From positions 1 through 39,911 of the forward strand of contig JAFSRW010000030.1 in NCBI GenBank assembly GCA_017445925.1: a stretch of 39,911 bases of DNA. The letters run 5' to 3'. The notes beneath the pieces were generated by a model. That model was not told the DNA's origin, searched no databases, and was given only the letters and a program-made list of their open reading frames with translations. This document shows positions 386-39,525 of the stretch, piece by piece. Position 1 is the stretch's first letter; each line of letters begins with the position of its first letter. The stretch comes from Bacteroidaceae bacterium. GTDB taxonomy: Bacteria; Bacteroidota; Bacteroidia; Bacteroidales; Bacteroidaceae. Made by a program: the position numbers and the translations under genes.

Positions 386-1180
386 TTATTTCTTTGATTC
401 TTCGCACATGCGATAGTTTCCGTGAATGTCGTCGCTTATTTCTGACTTGTCCACATGCTTTCGTAATTCTTCAATGTATCCCGCGGTAATTATACTTGAT
501 GGCAGGGCAATTACGGCTATACCGAGGAGCGAGGAGAAAATACTTATGGTTCTGCCTAAGTTTGAGACGGGGTAAAGGTCGCCATAGCCCACTGTGGTTA
601 GCGTACAGGCAGCCCAATAGAATGCATCAAAGAAGGTTTTGAATATGTATTCCCCCGTTACAGGATCTATCTCCTTCTCTGTCTGGAACATGATGATGGC
701 TGTAATAAAGATGTCGAAAAAGGCTAATGACAATACGGCAAGCAAGAGTTTACGCTGCTTCTTCACTACCGTAACAAATATTTCCAGCGGCTCAAAATAG
801 TGGACTATTTTTATGAATCGGAGAATCTTGAATAACCGGGATATCCTGGTCAGCTTAAATACTGGTTGAAGCAAATTGATTGTGGGCAAAATAGAGAGAA
901 GGTCTATTATTGCCATAGGTGTGAAAGGATAGGTCAGGAAAGCTACCCATTTGGGCTTGTTTGAGTGAAAATCGCTTATCGTCCAGCGAAGGAGATAATC
1001 AACTATATAACAGGCTCCAGAAAAAACATCGAAATACCAGAAAATAGGGTGTTGTACTCTGAATAGCAAGGGTGCAGTGCCTATAATTATTGCTATTAGC
1101 ATGATGCAATCATAAACTTGGGAAAAGAATTTTCCCTTCCTTGGTTCCACCAATTCGTATATCTTTTCTCTGTATAACAT
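386..1180 (-). CDS. Voltage-gated potassium channel (Kv-type, six TM)
   Basis: This 264-residue inner-membrane protein has the full architecture of a voltage-gated K+ channel subunit and should act as a tetramer passing K+. S1 is near residues 20-40 and S2 near 48-68. S4 near 108-128 carries regularly spaced Arg and Lys (RISRLFKILRFIK), the voltage sensor. S5 is near 143-166. The pore loop has the selectivity filter TVGYGD at 196-201, and S6 is near 207-236. There is no C-terminal RCK domain, only a short charged tail. It stands alone and is transcribed divergently from HU. A -7 element about 13 nt upstream of the start implies a leader of only about 10 nt. The identification is secure; the physiological role in this organism is not known. 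Confidence 0.9.
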   Translation of the reverse strand: MLYREKIYELVEPRKGKFFSQVYDCIMLIAIIIGTAPLLFRVQHPIFWYFDVFSGACYIVDYLLRWTISDFHSNKPKWVAFLTYPFTPMAIIDLLSILPTINLLQPVFKLTRISRLFKILRFIKIVHYFEPLEIFVTVVKKQRKLLLAVLSLAFFDIFITAIIMFQTEKEIDPVTGEYIFKTFFDAFYWAACTLTTVGYGDLYPVSNLGRTISIFSSLLGIAVIALPSSIITAGYIEELRKHVDKSEISDDIHGNYRMCEESKK

Positions 1181-1193
1181 ACTTTTTTTCTTG

Positions 1194-1201
1194 CAAAGTT
1201 A
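1194..1201 (-). promoter_or_regulatory. Promoter -7 of the K+ channel gene
   Basis: TAACTTTG on the minus strand matches TAnnTTTG. Its last G is 13 nt from the start codon, so the 5' UTR would be about 7-10 nt. No -33 TTG is found at 19-21 nt. Confidence 0.5.
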
Positions 1202-1271
1202 TAAAAGAATCTCTTTTTATAGCGTAAGTTGAAGAAAATCAACATTTTCCGTAAAAATGTAAGGGCGAAAT

Positions 1272-1302
1272 TTTGGGAAAAAGAAATCTTTGTGTAATTT
1301 TG
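1272..1302 (+). promoter_or_regulatory. Promoter of the HU gene
   Basis: A -33 TTTG at 1272-1275 and a -7 TAATTTTG at 1295-1302 are separated by 19 nt. The start of transcription would be near 1307, giving a leader of about 90 nt before the HU ATG at 1397. Confidence 0.7.
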
Positions 1303-1396
1303 TGGTCGTTTTTCGCGATTCCCTCTTATAACTTCCTTGAGGAAAGCGAGTTAACTTCAAATTATTAGAGCATAAACGTATAAAATAGAATATAAT

Positions 1397-1675
1397 ATGA
1401 CAAAGATTGAATTGGTAAAAATTGCCTCACAAAAAACAGGCATCGACCAGCAGACGATGTTGGCTGCGATGGAGGGTATCGTAGATACTCTTAAGGAGGC
1501 GTTGGTTCAGAAGGAAAATGTCTTCATTCGCGGGTGGGGAACTTGGATGCTGAAGCATAGAGCCCAGAAGACAGCTCGTAACATTAGTAAGAACACAACA
1601 CTGGTAATTGAGGCTCACGATGTTCCTTATTTCAAACCCTGTAAGGAGTTTCTGGACACAGTAGCTGCTTCATAA
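1397..1675 (+). CDS. HU-family DNA-binding protein
   Basis: A 92-residue nucleoid-associated protein of the HU/IHF family, which forms dimers that bend and compact DNA. The helical N-terminus contains the typical TKIELVKIASQKTG start. The middle holds the turn with GWGTWMLKHR, equivalent to the family's GFGxF segment, followed by the DNA-binding arm with QKTARNISKN and the closing VPYFKPCKEF. Length and layout match the family. It has its own promoter and is followed at once by an intrinsic terminator, so it is a monocistronic unit. Read-through into the GH92 gene 65 nt downstream is possible because no clear promoter is seen between them. Confidence 0.92.
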   Translation: MTKIELVKIASQKTGIDQQTMLAAMEGIVDTLKEALVQKENVFIRGWGTWMLKHRAQKTARNISKNTTLVIEAHDVPYFKPCKEFLDTVAAS

Positions 1676-1685
1676 AGAATATTTG

Positions 1686-1712
1686 CTCTCCTCCTTGAAG
1701 GAGAGTTTTTTT
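1686..1712 (+). terminator. Intrinsic terminator of HU
   Basis: CTCTCCT (1686-1692) pairs with AGGAGAG (1699-1705) around a 6-nt loop, followed by seven T residues. Confidence 0.8.
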
Positions 1713-1739
1713 GTTTAACCAACTATACATTATTTATTT

Positions 1740-4064
1740 ATGAAGAAATATTTTGTCATTATAGTTTCCCTGTATGCTTTCTCATTAACAGTATTCTCAC
1801 AAGGGAAAGGTGTGCTGGATTATGTGAACCCCATCATTGGTACCAACGGAATGGGACATACGTTTCCCGGAGCCTGCTCGCCCTTTGGCATTGTGCAGTT
1901 AAGCCCTGAGACGGATACCATCCCTCACAACGTGAACGGGCACTATCAGGGTAAAGTTTACGAGTATTGTGCCGGTTATCAGCATCACGATAAGACTATT
2001 GTAGGCTTCAGTCATACTCATCTGAGTGGCACGGGCCACTCGGATCTGGGCGATATCCTGATTATGCCCACAACAGGACGTATCCGCACCAACCCTGGAA
2101 CAGCTGAGAACCCTGACGGCGGCTACCGCTCGCGTTTCTCTCACGACACAGAAAAGTGCACGGCGGGCTATTACGAGGTGAAGTTGGACGACTACAATAT
2201 TCTGGCTCAGTTTACCGCCACGCAGCGTGTGGGCATTCATCAGTATACTTTCCCCGAGGCAGAGGGTCAGTTTGTACTGGACCTTGGCAGCGGCATCTAT
2301 AATTACGAGGGAAAGACGCTGTGGACCTATCTGCGTGTGGAGGACGAGACCACGCTGACGGGTTATCGTATCACTTGCGGATGGGCCAGGCAGAATTATA
2401 CATATTTCGCCATCAAACTGTCGGAACCCATCAAGGAGTGGGGCTACAACAACAAGCAGCGCATGCTGTACAACGGCTTTTGGCGCAAGATGGACATTCA
2501 GCACAACTTTCCCGACATGGCTGGCAAGGAAATCGTGAGCTATTTTAAGTTCCAGTTGCCTTTTAGCCGGAAACTTACCATTAAGGTGGCGCTCAGTTCC
2601 GTAAGCATGAGCGGCGCTTTGGCCAACCTGGAGGCCGAGACAAAGAGCAAGACTTTCGACCAGATTCGTCAGGAGACCGCCAGCAAATGGGAGAAGGAAC
2701 TCCGCACCGTGGATATCCAGGGAACCGAAGATCAGAAGACGCTTTTCTACACCAGCATGTACCACACCATGATTAACCCATCGGTTTACATGGATGTGGA
2801 CGGCCAGTATCGCGGCAACGATATGGAAATCCACAAGGCCAACGGCTTTACCAACTACACGGTATTCTCGCTATGGGATACCTATCGTGCAGAGCATCCC
2901 TTTCTGAACCTGCTGAAGCCTCAGCAGGGTGCCGACATGGCGCAGAGCATGATTGCCATTCAGCAGCAGAGCGCCCTGCACCTGTTGCCCATCTGGTATC
3001 TGATGGCCAACGAGGGTTGGTGCATGAGTGGCTATCATGCTGTATCTGTGCTCTCGGATGTAGCCAAGAAACTCGGTATCAAAGACAAGAAGGCTATGCT
3101 GGAGGCTATGAAGTCCACTTCGACATCGAAATGGATGGAAGGCCTGACCGACTATATGAAATACGGTTACGTTCCCTACGACCATTGCGGAACCAGCGCC
3201 AGCAACACCCTGGAGTATGCGTATGACGATTGGACCATCTATCAGGCCGCTCTGGATGCAGGTGATACTGAGATGGCCGAGACCTATAAGAAGCGTGCGT
3301 TGTACTATCGTAACGTATTTAATCCCACCATCGGTCTGGCTTGTCCCAAATATAAGGATGGCAGTTGGAAGAAGGATTTCTCGCCCCTGCAGACCTACGG
3401 CGAAGGATTCATCGAAGGCAACAGCGCCAACTACTCGTTCCATGTTCCCCACGACGTGAAGGGCATGATAGAATGCTTTGGCGGTGATAAAAAGTTTGTG
3501 GCTGCGCTGGACGACCTCTTTGCTCATCCTCTGGATAAGAAGTATTACGAGGATAACGAGGATATTGAGGAGGAATGTCTGCTGGGCGGCTATGTTCACG
3601 GCAACGAGCCCAGCCACCATGTTCCTTACCTATATGCCTGGACCTCTCAGCCCTGGAAGAGCCAGTACTGGTTGCGCGAAATCATGAATCGCATGTATGT
3701 GAACAATATCGACGGTCTGCACGGCAACGACGATTGCGGCCAAATGTCGGCATGGTACATCTTTAGCGCCATGGGCTTCTATCCTGTTTGTCCCGGCACC
3801 GACCAGTACGTCTTGGGTGCTCCCTACATTCCATACTGCAAAGTATCGCTGCCCAACGGCAAAACTCTGGAGATTAAAGCCCCTGGCGTAAGCGACAAGA
3901 ACCGTTACGTGAAGCAGGTGAAACTGAACGGCAAGCCTTACGACAAGCTTTATATCACGCACTCCGACCTTTTGGCTGGCGGTACGCTGGAGTTCCAGAT
4001 GGCATCAACACCTAATAAGAGCAGGGGTGTAAAGACAGGTAAACCATACTCTCTGAGTGATTAA
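1740..4064 (+). CDS. GH92 family glycoside hydrolase (alpha-mannosidase)
   Basis: A 774-residue secreted enzyme of glycoside hydrolase family 92, a family of Ca2+-dependent exo-acting alpha-mannosidases used by Bacteroidetes on host and yeast N-glycans and mannans. Residues 1-20 are a signal peptide ending near FSQG. An N-terminal beta-sandwich follows (about 25-270, with the family segment GTGHSDLGD), then an (alpha/alpha)6 barrel. The catalytic segments GNEPSHH (Glu as likely general acid) and GNDDCGQMSAW (Asp pair as likely base) are both present, so it should be active. There is no lipobox, so it is probably periplasmic. It is not next to a SusC/D pair, so it is an orphan rather than part of a utilization locus visible here. 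Linkage specificity (1,2, 1,3, 1,4 or 1,6) cannot be read from sequence alone. Confidence 0.93.
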   Translation: MKKYFVIIVSLYAFSLTVFSQGKGVLDYVNPIIGTNGMGHTFPGACSPFGIVQLSPETDTIPHNVNGHYQGKVYEYCAGYQHHDKTIVGFSHTHLSGTGHSDLGDILIMPTTGRIRTNPGTAENPDGGYRSRFSHDTEKCTAGYYEVKLDDYNILAQFTATQRVGIHQYTFPEAEGQFVLDLGSGIYNYEGKTLWTYLRVEDETTLTGYRITCGWARQNYTYFAIKLSEPIKEWGYNNKQRMLYNGFWRKMDIQHNFPDMAGKEIVSYFKFQLPFSRKLTIKVALSSVSMSGALANLEAETKSKTFDQIRQETASKWEKELRTVDIQGTEDQKTLFYTSMYHTMINPSVYMDVDGQYRGNDMEIHKANGFTNYTVFSLWDTYRAEHPFLNLLKPQQGADMAQSMIAIQQQSALHLLPIWYLMANEGWCMSGYHAVSVLSDVAKKLGIKDKKAMLEAMKSTSTSKWMEGLTDYMKYGYVPYDHCGTSASNTLEYAYDDWTIYQAALDAGDTEMAETYKKRALYYRNVFNPTIGLACPKYKDGSWKKDFSPLQTYGEGFIEGNSANYSFHVPHDVKGMIECFGGDKKFVAALDDLFAHPLDKKYYEDNEDIEEECLLGGYVHGNEPSHHVPYLYAWTSQPWKSQYWLREIMNRMYVNNIDGLHGNDDCGQMSAWYIFSAMGFYPVCPGTDQYVLGAPYIPYCKVSLPNGKTLEIKAPGVSDKNRYVKQVKLNGKPYDKLYITHSDLLAGGTLEFQMASTPNKSRGVKTGKPYSLSD

Positions 4065-4096: not shown

Positions 4097-4131
4097 AGCC
4101 TGCTACGCAGTCTCTAAATTACTCACGTTCG

Positions 4132-4158
4132 GATTTTCTCAAAAAAATTTGGAAAATC
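4132..4158. promoter_or_regulatory. Inverted repeat over the fabD P2 -33 region
   Basis: GATTTTC at 4132-4138 and GAAAATC at 4152-4158 form a 7-13-7 inverted repeat that covers the -33 element of P2. It could be an operator, or a hairpin in the transcript from P1. No regulator is identified. Confidence 0.35.
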
Positions 4159-4179
4159 GCTCACTTAATCGTAATTTTG
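4148..4179 (+). promoter_or_regulatory. fabD promoter P2
   Basis: A -33 TTTG at 4148-4151 and a -7 TAATTTTG at 4172-4179 are separated by 20 nt. Transcription would start near 4184, about 42 nt before the fabD ATG. Confidence 0.7.
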
Positions 4180-4225
4180 CACCCCGAAACTGAAAATTAT
4201 ATAAAATATAAGGTAGATAAAAGAT

Positions 4226-11265: not shown

Positions 11266-11306
11266 AATCCTTTTTCCTTCAAAGGTTATCCGTTTGTATA
11301 TTTATG

Positions 11307-11336
11307 CAAAGGTACGATTAAGCGAGGACACTACAA
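11307..11336 (-). promoter_or_regulatory. glnS promoter
   Basis: On the minus strand a -7 TACCTTTG (11307-11314) and a -33 TTG (11334-11336) are 19 nt apart. The leader would be about 37 nt. Confidence 0.7.
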
Positions 11337-11478
11337 AATAAAACGTGATTTTATTTTTGTTGTCGAGCAAAAGTGGCTTCTGCGAAGCCAAAGTCATACT
11401 CTTCCTTAATATAATAATGTGTGGTAAAGAAAATAGTTACCAAAAGTGCTGAATGTGTTATTTAACATGTGAGGAATG

Positions 11479-15406: not shown

Positions 15407-15522
15407 TCGTTTGAGAGGAGAAAATTTTTCATGAACCATATTTCTGTATTTTTATATCTGTACAGTTGGATGCACCACTTGCTCAAATCTAATGCCGTTG
15501 TTGACCATCAGCCTTTGGCTTC

Positions 15523-15536
15523 GCTAACCGCTAACC
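15523..15536 (-). repeat. Two heptamers GGTTAGC downstream of the TrmH gene
   Basis: GCTAACC occurs twice in tandem on the plus strand, which is GGTTAGC twice on the transcribed minus strand. It is the same unit found in the cysC-cysD junction near 34530. It lies about 80 nt after the TrmH stop codon. Confidence 0.6.
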
Positions 15537-15616
15537 GCAAAACTGAAAGCTGTTATCTTATATAAATAAATAAGGTAGCAACTTATCTTTGTGATTAAAT
15601 AATCATTTCTACTATT

Positions 15617-20065: not shown

Positions 20066-20138
20066 GCGTCCTTAGCTCAGTTGGTAGAGCAATTGACTCT
20101 TAATCAATGGGTCCAGGGTTCGAGCCCCTGAGGGCGTA
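20066..20138 (+). tRNA. tRNA-Lys (anticodon CTT), copy 1
   Basis: This 73-nt tRNA folds into a full cloverleaf. The D stem is GCTC/GAGC, the anticodon stem ATTGA/TCAAT with loop CTCTTAA (anticodon CTT at 20099-20101), and the T stem CAGGG/CCCTG with TTCGAGC. The acceptor stem has G-U pairs at 1-72 and 4-69, and the discriminator is A. The 3' CCA is not encoded. It reads AAG, which is clearly the favoured Lys codon in the genes here. Confidence 0.95.
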
Positions 20139-20167: not shown

Positions 20168-20240
20168 GCGTCCTTAGCTCAGTTGGTAGAGCAATTGACT
20201 CTTAATCAATGGGTCCAGGGTTCGAGCCCCTGAGGGCGTA
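20168..20240 (+). tRNA. tRNA-Lys (anticodon CTT), copy 2
   Basis: This copy is identical over all 73 nt to the tRNA at 20066-20138 and follows it after a 29-nt spacer. The two are in one transcript under one promoter and one terminator. The spacers and flanks are not conserved, so the duplication covers just the tRNA. Confidence 0.95.
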
Positions 20241-33929: not shown

Positions 33930-34535
33930 ATGGCTGAAAACATTTATCCCATATATGACCAGATGATGACGCGTGCCGACAAGGAGAATCTCCTCCACCA
34001 GCATGGTCTGATGGTCTGGTTTACAGGTTTGAGCGGAAGCGGCAAGAGCACCATTGCTATGGGTGTGGAGCGTGAGTTGCATAAGCGAGGCATCCTTTGT
34101 AGGATTCTTGACGGCGACAATATCCGTTCCGGCATCAACAGCAACTTAGGCTTCTCTGCTGAGGATAGGATGGAGAACATCCGACGGATTGCTGAGATTG
34201 GAAAACTCTTTGTTCAGACGGGCATCGTAACACTGGCATGCTTTGTCAGTCCTACCAACGATGTGCGCCGTTTGGCTCGCAACATCATTGGCGAGGATGA
34301 TTTCAGGGAGGTTTTCGTCTCTACGCCTCTTGAGGAATGTGAGCGTCGCGATGTGAAAGGTCTTTATGCCAGAGCCAGAAGGGGCGAGGTGAAAGACTTT
34401 ACCGGCATCAGCGCTCCCTTCGAAGTACCAGAGAATCCAGCCCTTGAGATTGATACCAGCCGCCTCTCGTTAGAGGAATCTGTAAAAAGGGTGGTGGAGT
34501 TGATAATGAAAAATGGGTTAGAGGTTATGGGTTAG
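33930..34535 (+). CDS. cysC: Adenylylsulfate kinase
   Basis: A 201-residue cytoplasmic kinase that phosphorylates APS to PAPS. The P-loop GLSGSGKST is at residues 33-41. DGDNIRSGIN, FVSPTNDVR and KGLYARARRGEVKDFTGI follow in the order of the family. It is a stand-alone kinase, not fused to ATP sulfurylase. PAPS made here can feed reductive assimilation or sulfotransferases; the neighbouring sulfotransferase and lack of reductase genes favour the second. The last codons (GLEVMG) and the TAG stop lie inside a heptanucleotide repeat array. Confidence 0.95.
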   Translation: MAENIYPIYDQMMTRADKENLLHQHGLMVWFTGLSGSGKSTIAMGVERELHKRGILCRILDGDNIRSGINSNLGFSAEDRMENIRRIAEIGKLFVQTGIVTLACFVSPTNDVRRLARNIIGEDDFREVFVSTPLEECERRDVKGLYARARRGEVKDFTGISAPFEVPENPALEIDTSRLSLEESVKRVVELIMKNGLEVMG

Positions 34536-34624
34536 CGGTTAGCGATTAGAGACACCTGAATCTTGAATCCTGAAACTAATATTGGTTAAAGGTTAGCGTA
34601 ATTATGAATTATGAATTATGAATT
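34516..34624 (+). repeat. Four consecutive heptanucleotide arrays between cysC and cysD
   Basis: Reading from 34516: five GGTTAGN-like units (34516-34550), three TGAATCN-like units (34557-34577), two GGTTARN units (34584-34597) and three exact ATGAATT units (34604-34624). All have a 7-nt period. Almost every unit contains TAG, TGA or TAA. The first array holds the cysC stop, and the last holds the cysD start codon. Because 7 is not a multiple of 3, the stops fall in all three frames. Confidence 0.85.
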
Positions 34625-35522
34625 AAATCTGTCGCATCTGCAGGAACTAGAGGCCGAAAGCATTCACATCATTCGTGAGGTGGCTGCCGAGTTCGAGAAT
34701 CCTGTTATGCTGTATAGTATAGGTAAGGACTCCAGCGTTATGGTTCGTCTGGCTGAGAAGGCTTTCGCGCCAGGCAAGGTGCCTTTCCCCCTGATGCACA
34801 TTGATTCTAAATGGAAGTTTCGCGAGATGATTGAGTTCCGAGACCGTTATGCCAAGGAGCACGGATGGAACCTGATTGTGGAAAGCAATATGGAGGCTTT
34901 CAATGCCGGCGTGGGACCCTTTACCCATGGAAGCAAGGTGCATACCGACCTTATGAAGACCAAGGCCCTCCTGGATGCGCTGAACAAATATAAGTTCGAT
35001 GCTGCCTTTGGTGGAGCCCGCAGGGATGAGGAAAAGAGTCGGGCCAAGGAGCGCATCTTCAGCTTCCGCGACCAGTTTAACCAGTGGGACCCTAAGAACC
35101 AGCGCCCTGAGCTCTGGGATATCTATAACAGCAGGGTTCATAAGGGCGAGAGCATTCGTGTATTCCCCTTGAGCAATTGGACAGAGTTGGATATCTGGCA
35201 GTATATCCGTCTGGAGAACATTCCCATTGTGCCCCTGTATTTTGCCAAGGAACGTCCTTGCGTGGAGATTGACGGTAACCTAATAATGGCCGATGATGAC
35301 CGTCTGCCCAAGGAACTGGTGCCCAAGATTCACAACCGCATGGTTCGTTTCCGCACACTTGGCTGCTGGCCTCTGACGGGTGCTGTAGAGTCGAATGCTA
35401 CCACCATCGAGGAGATTGTAGAGGAGATGATGACCACCACCAAGAGCGAGAGAACCACTCGTGTAATAGACTTCGACCAGGAAGCCAGCATGGAGCAGAA
35501 AAAGAGGGAGGGATATTTTTAA
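34611..35522 (+). CDS. cysD: Sulfate adenylyltransferase subunit 2
   Basis: A 303-residue ATP sulfurylase catalytic subunit that, with GTPase CysN, converts sulfate and ATP to APS. The PP-loop SIGKDS is at residues 36-41. [20 protein letters not shown] and [10 protein letters not shown] are typical CysD segments. Among three ATG codons in the heptamer array, 34604 and 34618 meet stops within a few codons; only 34611 reads into CysD, as [16 protein letters not shown]. So the first six codons come from the repeat. The cysD TAA stop overlaps the next heptamer array. Confidence 0.96.
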
Positions 35523-35555
35523 TTGAAAATTGACAATTGAAAATTGACAATTGAT
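35521..35555 (+). repeat. Five AATTGAN heptamers between cysD and cysN
   Basis: AATTGAA, AATTGAC, AATTGAA, AATTGAC and AATTGAT run without gap from the last two bases of the cysD stop codon to 1 nt before the cysN ATG at 35557. Each unit holds a TGA; these fall in all three frames. The whole intergenic space is this array. Confidence 0.85.
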
Positions 35556-35556
35556 A

Positions 35557-37041
35557 ATGGAAGACAAAAAGTTAGATATAAAGGCTTATCTTGATGCCGA
35601 TGAGAAGAAGGATTTGCTCCGTCTCTTGACGGCAGGCTCTGTGGATGATGGAAAATCTACGCTGATAGGCCGACTTCTTTTTGATAGCAAGAAGCTTTAC
35701 GAGGACCAGTTGCAGGCTCTGGAGCGCGACTCCCGTCGTGTGGGCAATGCCGGAGCTGGGCAGATAGACTATGCTTTGCTGCTGGATGGCCTGAAGGCTG
35801 AGCGCGAGGAGGGTATTACCATCGATGTGGCTTACCGCTATTTCTCCACCAACCAGCGCAAGTTTATCATTGCCGATACCCCGGGCCACGAGCAATATAC
35901 CCGCAACATGATTACTGGTGGCAGCACGGCTAATCTGGCTATCATCTTGGTAGATGCCCGTACGGGAGTTATCACGCAGACGCGCCGCCATACATTCCTG
36001 GTTTCCCTGTTGGGAATCAAGCACATTGTGCTGGCCGTAAACAAGATGGATTTGGTGAACTTCTCCGAGGAAGTTTTCACAAAGATAAAGAATGAATACC
36101 TGGCGCTGACCAGTCAGTTGGGCATCGAGGATGTAACGTGCTTCCCCCTCTCGGCTCTGGAGGGCGACAATGTGGTGGAGAAGAGTCCTCGCACGCCTTG
36201 GTTCCAGGGCACATCATTGCTTCAGTTCCTGGAGACCGTGCCCATCGACCGCGACCGAAATATGCAGGACTTCCGCTTCCCCGTTCAGTACGTCCTGCGT
36301 CCCAACTTGGACTTCCGTGGCTTCTGCGGAAAGGTTGCCAGCGGCGTAATCCGTAAGGGCGATGAGGTTGTGGCCCTACCCAGCATGAAGAAGAGCCGCG
36401 TAAAGAACATTGTTACATATGAAGGCGAGCTCTCCTACGCATTCTGCCCTCAGTCTATTTGTATAACTCTGGAGGACGAGATAGATATCAGTAGAGGAGA
36501 GATGATCGTGCGCCCTGATAATCTGCCAAACATCGGCCGTTACTTCCAGACAATGCTTGTATGGATGGACGAGGAGCCTATGGACCGTGGCAAGCAATTC
36601 TTCCTGAAGCACAACACCAATACCACCCGTGCTACCATAGATGAGGTTTGTTATCGTGTGGATGTAAACACCATGGAGCAGTTGCCTGGCACAGACTTCA
36701 AACTGAACGAGATAGGTTGCGTCCGCATTACTACGGCTAAAACCATCTTCTTCGATGCCTACAAGCAGAATAAGGCTACTGGCGCCTTCATTCTCATAGA
36801 CCCCATCACCAACAACACCTCAGCGGTGGGTATGATAATCCGTCCCTTAGAGATGGACGACATCAACAAAGCCGACGTTCCCACGCTCGACCTTAAGAAG
36901 CTAGGGATAGGGGAGGAGCACTATGAGGCAATAGAGAAGGCGATGAAGGACCTTGCAAGGCAAGGGCTTGAGATTGTAATAAGACGCCCCTCTCCAACCC
37001 CTAACCCCTCCTCCCCAAAATGGGAGGTGGGAAATATATAA
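35557..37041 (+). CDS. cysN: Sulfate adenylyltransferase subunit 1 (GTPase)
   Basis: A 494-residue translation-factor-like GTPase that drives APS formation by CysD. G1 is GSVDDGKST at residues 27-35, the G3 motif is [12 protein letters not shown] near residue 109, and G4 is NKMD. Beta-barrel domains II and III follow. It is not fused to CysC. The last 15 or so residues ([19 protein letters not shown]) are translated from a C-rich palindromic repeat and look unlike a natural CysN end, as if the repeat had replaced the original stop. The ATG at 35557 directly follows the heptamer array; an in-frame TTG at 35551 is less likely. Confidence 0.94.
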
Positions 37042-39459: not shown

Positions 39460-39525
39460 AATGTTCAATGCTCAATGTTCAATGAAATAAAATTCTTCAC
39501 TTTTCACTCTTAACTCTTCACTTGA
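39460..39525 (-). repeat. Heptamer arrays in the HU-smalltalk spacer
   Basis: On the plus strand AATGTTC, AATGCTC and AATGTTC (39460-39480) run in tandem, and CACTTTT, CACTCTT, AACTCTT and CACTTGA (39498-39525) form a second array. On the transcribed minus strand each unit holds TGA or TAA. Confidence 0.7.

Follow-up and report, generated by a model that had tools for sequence, protein, structure and literature searches.

Convergent heptanucleotide tandem arrays at the cysC–cysD junction and in other intergenic gaps of a gut Bacteroidaceae genome

The short junction between cysC and cysD in an uncultured gut bacterium of the Bacteroidaceae is composed of four tandem arrays with a period of 7 nt. 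We consider it probable that heptanucleotide tandem repeats populate intergenic gaps throughout the genome and that this junction is one such patch; the units follow the consensus NNRTTRA, the arrays are turned over and face each other, and the stop codons would result from the unit and its period. The facing arrangement is more surprising than the stop codons, which look mostly like a by-product.

Four arrays between cysC and cysD

The window, that is, the whole stretch of 39,911 nucleotides that was analyzed, carries the following genes and heptamer arrays:

33930..34535, plus strand: cysC, adenylyl-sulfate kinase, 201 aa (ORF; NF003013, 235 bits, cut-off 163)
34516..34550, plus orientation by the NNRTTRA consensus: array 1, GGTTAGN x5, holding the cysC stop
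34556..34576, minus orientation: array 2, NTGAATC x3, convergent with array 1
34584..34597, plus orientation by inspection: array 3, GGTTARN x2, below the detection threshold
34604..34624, minus orientation: array 4, ATGAATT x3, containing the cysD start ATG
34611..35522, plus strand: cysD, sulfate adenylyltransferase small subunit (ORF; TIGR02039, 496 bits, cut-off 396.6)
35520..35558, plus: array TTGANAA, about 5.6 units, spanning the cysD stop and reaching the cysN start
35557..37041, plus strand: cysN, sulfate adenylyltransferase large subunit (TIGR02034, 609 bits, cut-off 336.1)
15521..15543, strand not given: heptamer array CGCTAAC
39460..39485, strand not given: heptamer array AATGTTC
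39496..39518, strand not given: heptamer array TTCACTC

The names of cysC, cysD and cysN are upheld, as each match exceeds its curated NCBIfam cut-off; for cysN, the ORF list begins at a TTG at 35551 and an in-frame ATG follows at 35557. That four arrays with a 7-nt period make up the junction, as the original prediction had claimed, was borne out by the sequence and by our scripts. Across 34516-34624, 65 of 102 positions are identical at lag 7 (shuffle mean 28.8, z 8.3, a value reached by 0 of 1000 shuffles), lag 14 gives a z of 5.6, and the remaining lags from 3 to 15 stay within -1.9 to 1.4. Two of the five units of array 1 are off-pattern (GGTTATG and GATTAGA), and the third unit of array 2 reads CTGAAAC. 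On the plus strand, stop codons occupy all three frames in arrays 1, 2 and 4, again as predicted, and two frames in array 3; on the minus strand, stops cover three frames of array 1, two frames each of arrays 3 and 4, and no frame of array 2. The cysC stop (TAG at 34533-34535) does lie within the first array and the cysD ATG (34611) within the last. Since the cysC matches of 10 relatives stop at residue 192-194 of 201, the final residues of the protein here are encoded by the array. The four arrays run plus, minus, plus, minus, and we read them as two convergent pairs placed head to tail, with array 3 oriented by inspection in both statements.

Elsewhere in the window, Rfam searches at gathering thresholds returned two tRNAs and nothing else. 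The two tRNA genes (20066-20138 and 20168-20240) score equally in Rfam, are separated by 30 bp and are probably a tandem duplication.

Abundance, unit consensus and orientation of the arrays

The genome is a 3.3-Mb draft, 83.7% complete, of which we sampled 61 stretches covering 1,051,376 of 3,316,104 bases (12,333 of these N), with gene calls (684 genes) and array thresholds from our own scripts. Twenty of the stretches were drawn from contigs, several of them already known to carry GGTTAG arrays; without these 20, array density was unchanged (25.9 vs 26.1 per 100 kb) and neighboring pairs numbered 10 convergent and 0 divergent. Duplicate arrays were removed before consensus and polarity were counted.

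The sample contains 274 arrays of at least three units. Enrichment of the 7-nt period, as the original prediction expected, was strong: in 363 kb, comprising the window and a set of 20 stretches, exact noncoding runs numbered 34 for period 7 (shuffle mean 0.1), 5 for period 6 and 4 for period 8. Over the full 1.05 Mb, the corresponding figures were 122, 24 and 10 for noncoding runs and 53, 10 and 4 for coding runs. Sorted by gap type, 152 arrays lie between co-directional genes, 32 between convergent genes and 24 between divergent genes, and divergent gaps are also poorer per base (24 arrays in 32.8 kb vs 152 in 82.5 kb of co-directional gaps). Throughout this genome, exact GGTTAGN x3 is found at 48 overlapping places and TTGANNN x4 at 273, while the period-6 version of the latter is found at 0.

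Non-heptamer dispersed repeats occur in the same gaps of this genome. One class, distinct from the heptamers, consists of noncoding hexamer-type arrays (GTTAAC or GTTATC, then G); it was seen at loci L193 (7350-7436) and L225 (14568-14643) and in the gaps of L209 and L038, and it recurs in up to 14 other sampled gaps. A dispersed imperfect palindrome of the type ACGATTAAGCGAG ... CGAGCGAAAGT is present in the window at about 4123-4183 and 11304-11367 and at L048, L043 and L207, and matches at least six other gaps, all intergenic. At two further loci of this genome, L194 and L024, a GGTTAG array is followed by a common sequence of roughly 100 bp (GGCTGCGATTAAGCGAGAGC ...), so that the copying of some composites extends over longer stretches. 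Finally, L201 (contig C42 of this genome) holds six ORF-internal heptamer arrays at about 1026-3860, each antisense to its ORF and thus in the stop-poor orientation; these ORFs either encode true repeat proteins or are chance ORFs over repeats.

Among the 274 arrays we count 73 different units; when units within one mismatch are grouped into families, the eight largest families account for 233 arrays. When 263 non-redundant unit consensuses were aligned, with rotation and strand left free, they converged on NNRTTRA at 5.46 bits per array; random noncoding 7-mers reached 3.3-3.6 and units with permuted letters 3.8-4.2. Orientation was assigned by expectation maximization (EM) trained on this genome and then applied to others. 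Among neighboring arrays of this genome at most 60 bp apart, 22 pairs are convergent, 2 divergent and 33 in the same direction. Four other sample sets gave convergent-to-divergent ratios of 5:0, 2:0, 6:1 and 9:1, so that the five sets total 44 convergent and 4 divergent pairs, with the sets partly dependent for pairing and polarity because some named loci and some of the other genomes probably belong to the same species. Paired arrays in this genome often belong to different unit families; composites such as a TGAAGAR array, a short spacer and an AATGTTC array recur, and GGTTAGN arrays often adjoin other units, also in the window.

Arrays that overlap a gene boundary or lie within 30 bp of one tend to point inward, into the gap. 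At the 3' ends of genes in this genome 51 arrays point inward and 15 outward, at the 5' ends 40 and 18; in three other sets, with both ends pooled, the inward-to-outward ratio is 21:7, 19:7 and 41:18, the 5' ends being near even in two sets (6:5 and 16:13). In total, 3' ends give 100:25 and 5' ends 72:40. Where an array near a boundary is isolated, the inward bias is weaker (43:21) and, for 5' ends taken by themselves (18:10), not significant.

Turnover among relatives and competing explanations

In the sheep-rumen Bacteroidaceae draft genome L069, which shares about 85% DNA identity with the window over the syntenic stretch, the junction has GGTTAGN x3 and the ATGAATT array, the intervening part is missing, and one pair stands in place of the two in the window. 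The GGTTAG array is missing from the junction in L070 (about 86% DNA identity) and L073. Copy number of GGTTAGN at the junction among the relatives compared thus runs from x5 here through x3 to 0. Among 17 relatives with cysD, 10 of which have an upstream cysC match, the adjoining junctions show, by eye, other heptamers or none.

Across the genus, exact GGTTAGN x3 is present in 36 of 101 genomes and its reversed control in none, with loads ranging from 0 (65 of the 101) up to 176 places. At the level of the order, TTGANNN x4 was found in 140 of 295 genomes and its period-6 version in 52 of 295; the reversed control of this pattern is itself a heptamer pattern, with 83 places here and more places than the pattern in many other genomes, so that it understates the signal and provides no clean null. 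Strict TTGA pairs in 99 genomes of the order showed no convergent excess (51 convergent vs 67 divergent places, summed manually over the forward columns), and the pairing is therefore demonstrated in the genus and in the named relatives sampled around cysD rather than across the order. Outside the genus, dense exact period-7 runs were seen in Parabacteroides massiliensis (L112; 5 in 20.9 kb) and in L105 (3 in 5 kb).

Some relatives carry a conserved core between GGTTAGN arrays that form inverted arms. This raises the alternative that the arrays are the variable arms of dispersed REP/BIME-like or MITE-like elements moved by an enzyme. REP/BIME elements of enterobacteria are dispersed, intergenic, arranged in inverted pairs and rare between divergent genes; they are not known to have tandem 7-nt arms. 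In favor of such elements, 9 of 101 genomes carry the convergent GGTTAGN-core pattern, with 105 overlapping places between them (manual sum), and 0 of 101 the divergent one, the TGAAGAR-spacer-AATGTTC composites recur in the window's genome, and divergent gaps hold fewer arrays per base. However, the window's own genome has no place of the GGTTAG-core-CTAACC form, and neither a target duplication nor a precise empty site was established. The genome also differs from REP/BIME systems in lacking a match to PF01797 (Y1 transposase), with the proviso that, at 83.7% completeness, a partner acting in trans or a gene in the missing part is possible. Nor is PF01797 linked to load, as a match is present in 5 of 9 GGTTAG-rich genomes and in 36 of 92 others (Fisher p 0.48). 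We therefore rejected a REP-type transposase as the driver, and enzyme-moved elements in general seem to us an improbable account of the arrays. The recurrence of composites and of the conserved core at separate places nevertheless suggests some spread beyond local slippage.

Another explanation is that selection maintains three-frame stop cassettes, which would stop ribosomes or reset them between the genes of an operon. It has in its favor the three-frame stops of arrays 1, 2 and 4 at the junction and the overall richness of the arrays in stops. In co-directional gaps, 76 of 152 arrays have stops in three frames on the transcribed strand, compared with 9-28 of 152 in five sets of length-matched non-array gap DNA. 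However, the opposite strand is enriched as well (70 of 152 arrays vs 7-18 of 152 in matched DNA), and a paired comparison of the strands over the 152 arrays gave 59 sense to 47 antisense. Stop density per 100 nt tells the same story, with 9.2 sense and 8.1 antisense in arrays and 5.4-6.6 and 4.6-5.7, respectively, in matched non-array DNA. Arrays being stop-rich yet on both strands, the result largely agrees with the outcome that the original prediction named as refuting it, the lack of a preference for the transcribed strand. The arrays also lie between convergent and divergent gene pairs, and junctions without arrays occur in same-genus relatives that keep both cysC and cysD.

The preference for stop-bearing units on the transcribed strand that the original prediction anticipated thus fails for co-directional gaps overall, holds near gene 3' ends of this genome (stop-rich orientation 51 sense, 15 antisense) and is reversed near its 5' ends (18 sense, 40 antisense); because of this reversal, termination alone does not explain the orientations. 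Near 3' ends, three-frame stops are present on the gene strand in 43 of 66 arrays and on the other strand in 27 of 66, and the TGAAGAR family has 14 sense and 3 antisense arrays. The 3' polarity bias exceeds the 5' bias over all samples (100:25 vs 72:40, Fisher p 0.009), so a stop-linked filter may contribute at gene ends, and stops may matter there. We considered whether the 3' polarity could be an ascertainment artefact of ORFs reading through stop-free arrays, but only 7 internal arrays (5 antisense, 2 sense) lie as close as 100 bp to the 3' end of an ORF, too few to cancel the bias. Of all 51 ORF-internal arrays, 43 are antisense, in the stop-poor orientation, and 8 are sense. The analysis gave no evidence that the arrays serve as ribosome reset points. 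Taken together, a stop-cassette function is not needed to explain the arrays; as a selected feature it is unsupported overall, leaving a partial effect at 3' ends, and we regard its role in maintaining the arrays as very unlikely.

There is a similarly slim chance that the convergent arrays act in mRNA as imperfect hairpins or as sites for RNA-binding proteins. Their arrangement, their position beside starts and stops and the translational role proposed for TAACTGA repeats (PMC4679880) would favor this. Against it, the fold of the junction RNA is no more stable than expected from shuffled sequence (z 0.21; 113 of 200 shuffles equal or exceed its stability), so that a hairpin there is unsupported. 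In the GGTTAG-core element of relatives, moreover, the complementary ends are invariant, covariation is absent (0 of 10 pairs changed on both sides) and the arms show no complementarity at their variable positions (35 of 119, under the permuted mean).

Proposed origin and relation to known repeats

We return to the reading of the junction as a patch of genome-wide heptanucleotide repeats. The aligned sample shows that units are drawn from a limited set with the NNRTTRA consensus, and the junctions of close relatives show that arrays appear, disappear and change among them, most simply, it would seem, through 7-nt slippage or unequal exchange. The pair and polarity counts show that neighboring arrays tend to converge and that arrays at gene boundaries tend to point inward. 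Judging from the unit sequence, stop triplets would arise because TGA, TAA or TAG is either included in RTTRA or generated by it, and would appear in all frames because a 7-nt period shifts any stop through the frames. Within ORFs, arrays are found mainly in the stop-poor orientation, and an array at a gene end can supplant the native stop and append a short tail, which is the case in cysC. Slippage alone does not predict the consensus, the convergent pairing or the polarity. For annotation, growth of an array can displace the stop or the start of a gene, and cysC and cysD are examples.

Tandem heptamers of this general kind are known. In the survey of Mrazek et al. 2007, as summarized in PMC4679880 and PMC4692102, heptamers form the commonest long-repeat class in most genomes, and it was suggested that long heptanucleotide repeats come from slippage of a polymerase with a 7-nt footprint; the citing accounts mention neither a unit consensus nor a polarity, both of which are found here. 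According to the relevant part of PMC4060949, repeats with longer units are normally or weakly over-represented across phyla.

Two described systems are closest. The first, as presented in PMC4679880 (MacGregor 2015), comprises TAACTGA direct repeats in Beggiatoaceae, Cyanobacteria and five Bacteroidetes, which carry three-frame stops, are intergenic, overlap upstream stop codons and lie near start codons; in Bacteroidetes they stand beside other heptamer arrays and are missing from close relatives. The original prediction knew of no such stop-bearing families in this group, which, given these five genomes, was mistaken for Bacteroidetes at large. Like the TAACTGA repeats, three of the four arrays in the window have three-frame forward stops, and the other traits just named are shared as well; unlike them, with the one dominant unit and rare related units that this source describes, the arrays here use many units, and TAACTGA dimers number 0 in the 61 stretches of the 1.05-Mb sample. 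A search of the open-licence literature on heptamer repeats of Bacteroides, Bacteroidetes, Prevotella, cyanobacteria and bacteria did not find a description of the present units.

The second system, in the account of PMC4692102 (Rehm et al. 2015), consists of GGGAATC and GGGGA(T/C)T repeats in Xanthomonas and Nostoc. Their 7-nt tandem units combine conserved with variable positions, and the repeats are present in hundreds per genome and mostly intergenic, with 7-8% between divergent ORFs and convergent pairs in 70 and 75 cases; they lie near stops on the sense strand and near starts on the antisense strand, and prominent arrays are not common to related species. The likeness is close: our arrays have 7-nt units, again with constant and variable positions, number in the hundreds, are mostly intergenic with few in divergent gaps, differ between relatives, pair convergently in close proximity (44 vs 4) and lie sense near stops and antisense near starts, the 5' bias being weak in two sets. 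They differ in that their units are AT-rich and of many families and that their pairs are often of mixed family. A G3 quadruplex pattern fits 1 of the 274 arrays, and dimers of GGGAATC or GGGGATT number 0 in the sample. Because the Xanthomonas architecture recurs here although the AT-rich units hardly ever match a quadruplex pattern, quadruplexes are arguably not what shapes it; the 7-nt step and the polarity are left as the features in need of a mechanism, and the spread of GGTTAGN loads from 0 to 176 places within one genus permits comparison. It is conceivable, though we advance this tentatively, that convergent heptamer pairs form one general class of bacterial intergenic element, G-rich in Xanthomonas and AT-rich here, in which a fixed 7-nt step writes units of one polarity inward from gene boundaries; units would be interchangeable while step and polarity persist, and in this genus some core-flanking pairs would have become dispersed elements. 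In relation to these systems, we read the arrays as belonging to a known kind of 7-nt repeat with rapid turnover, here with a new repertoire of units.
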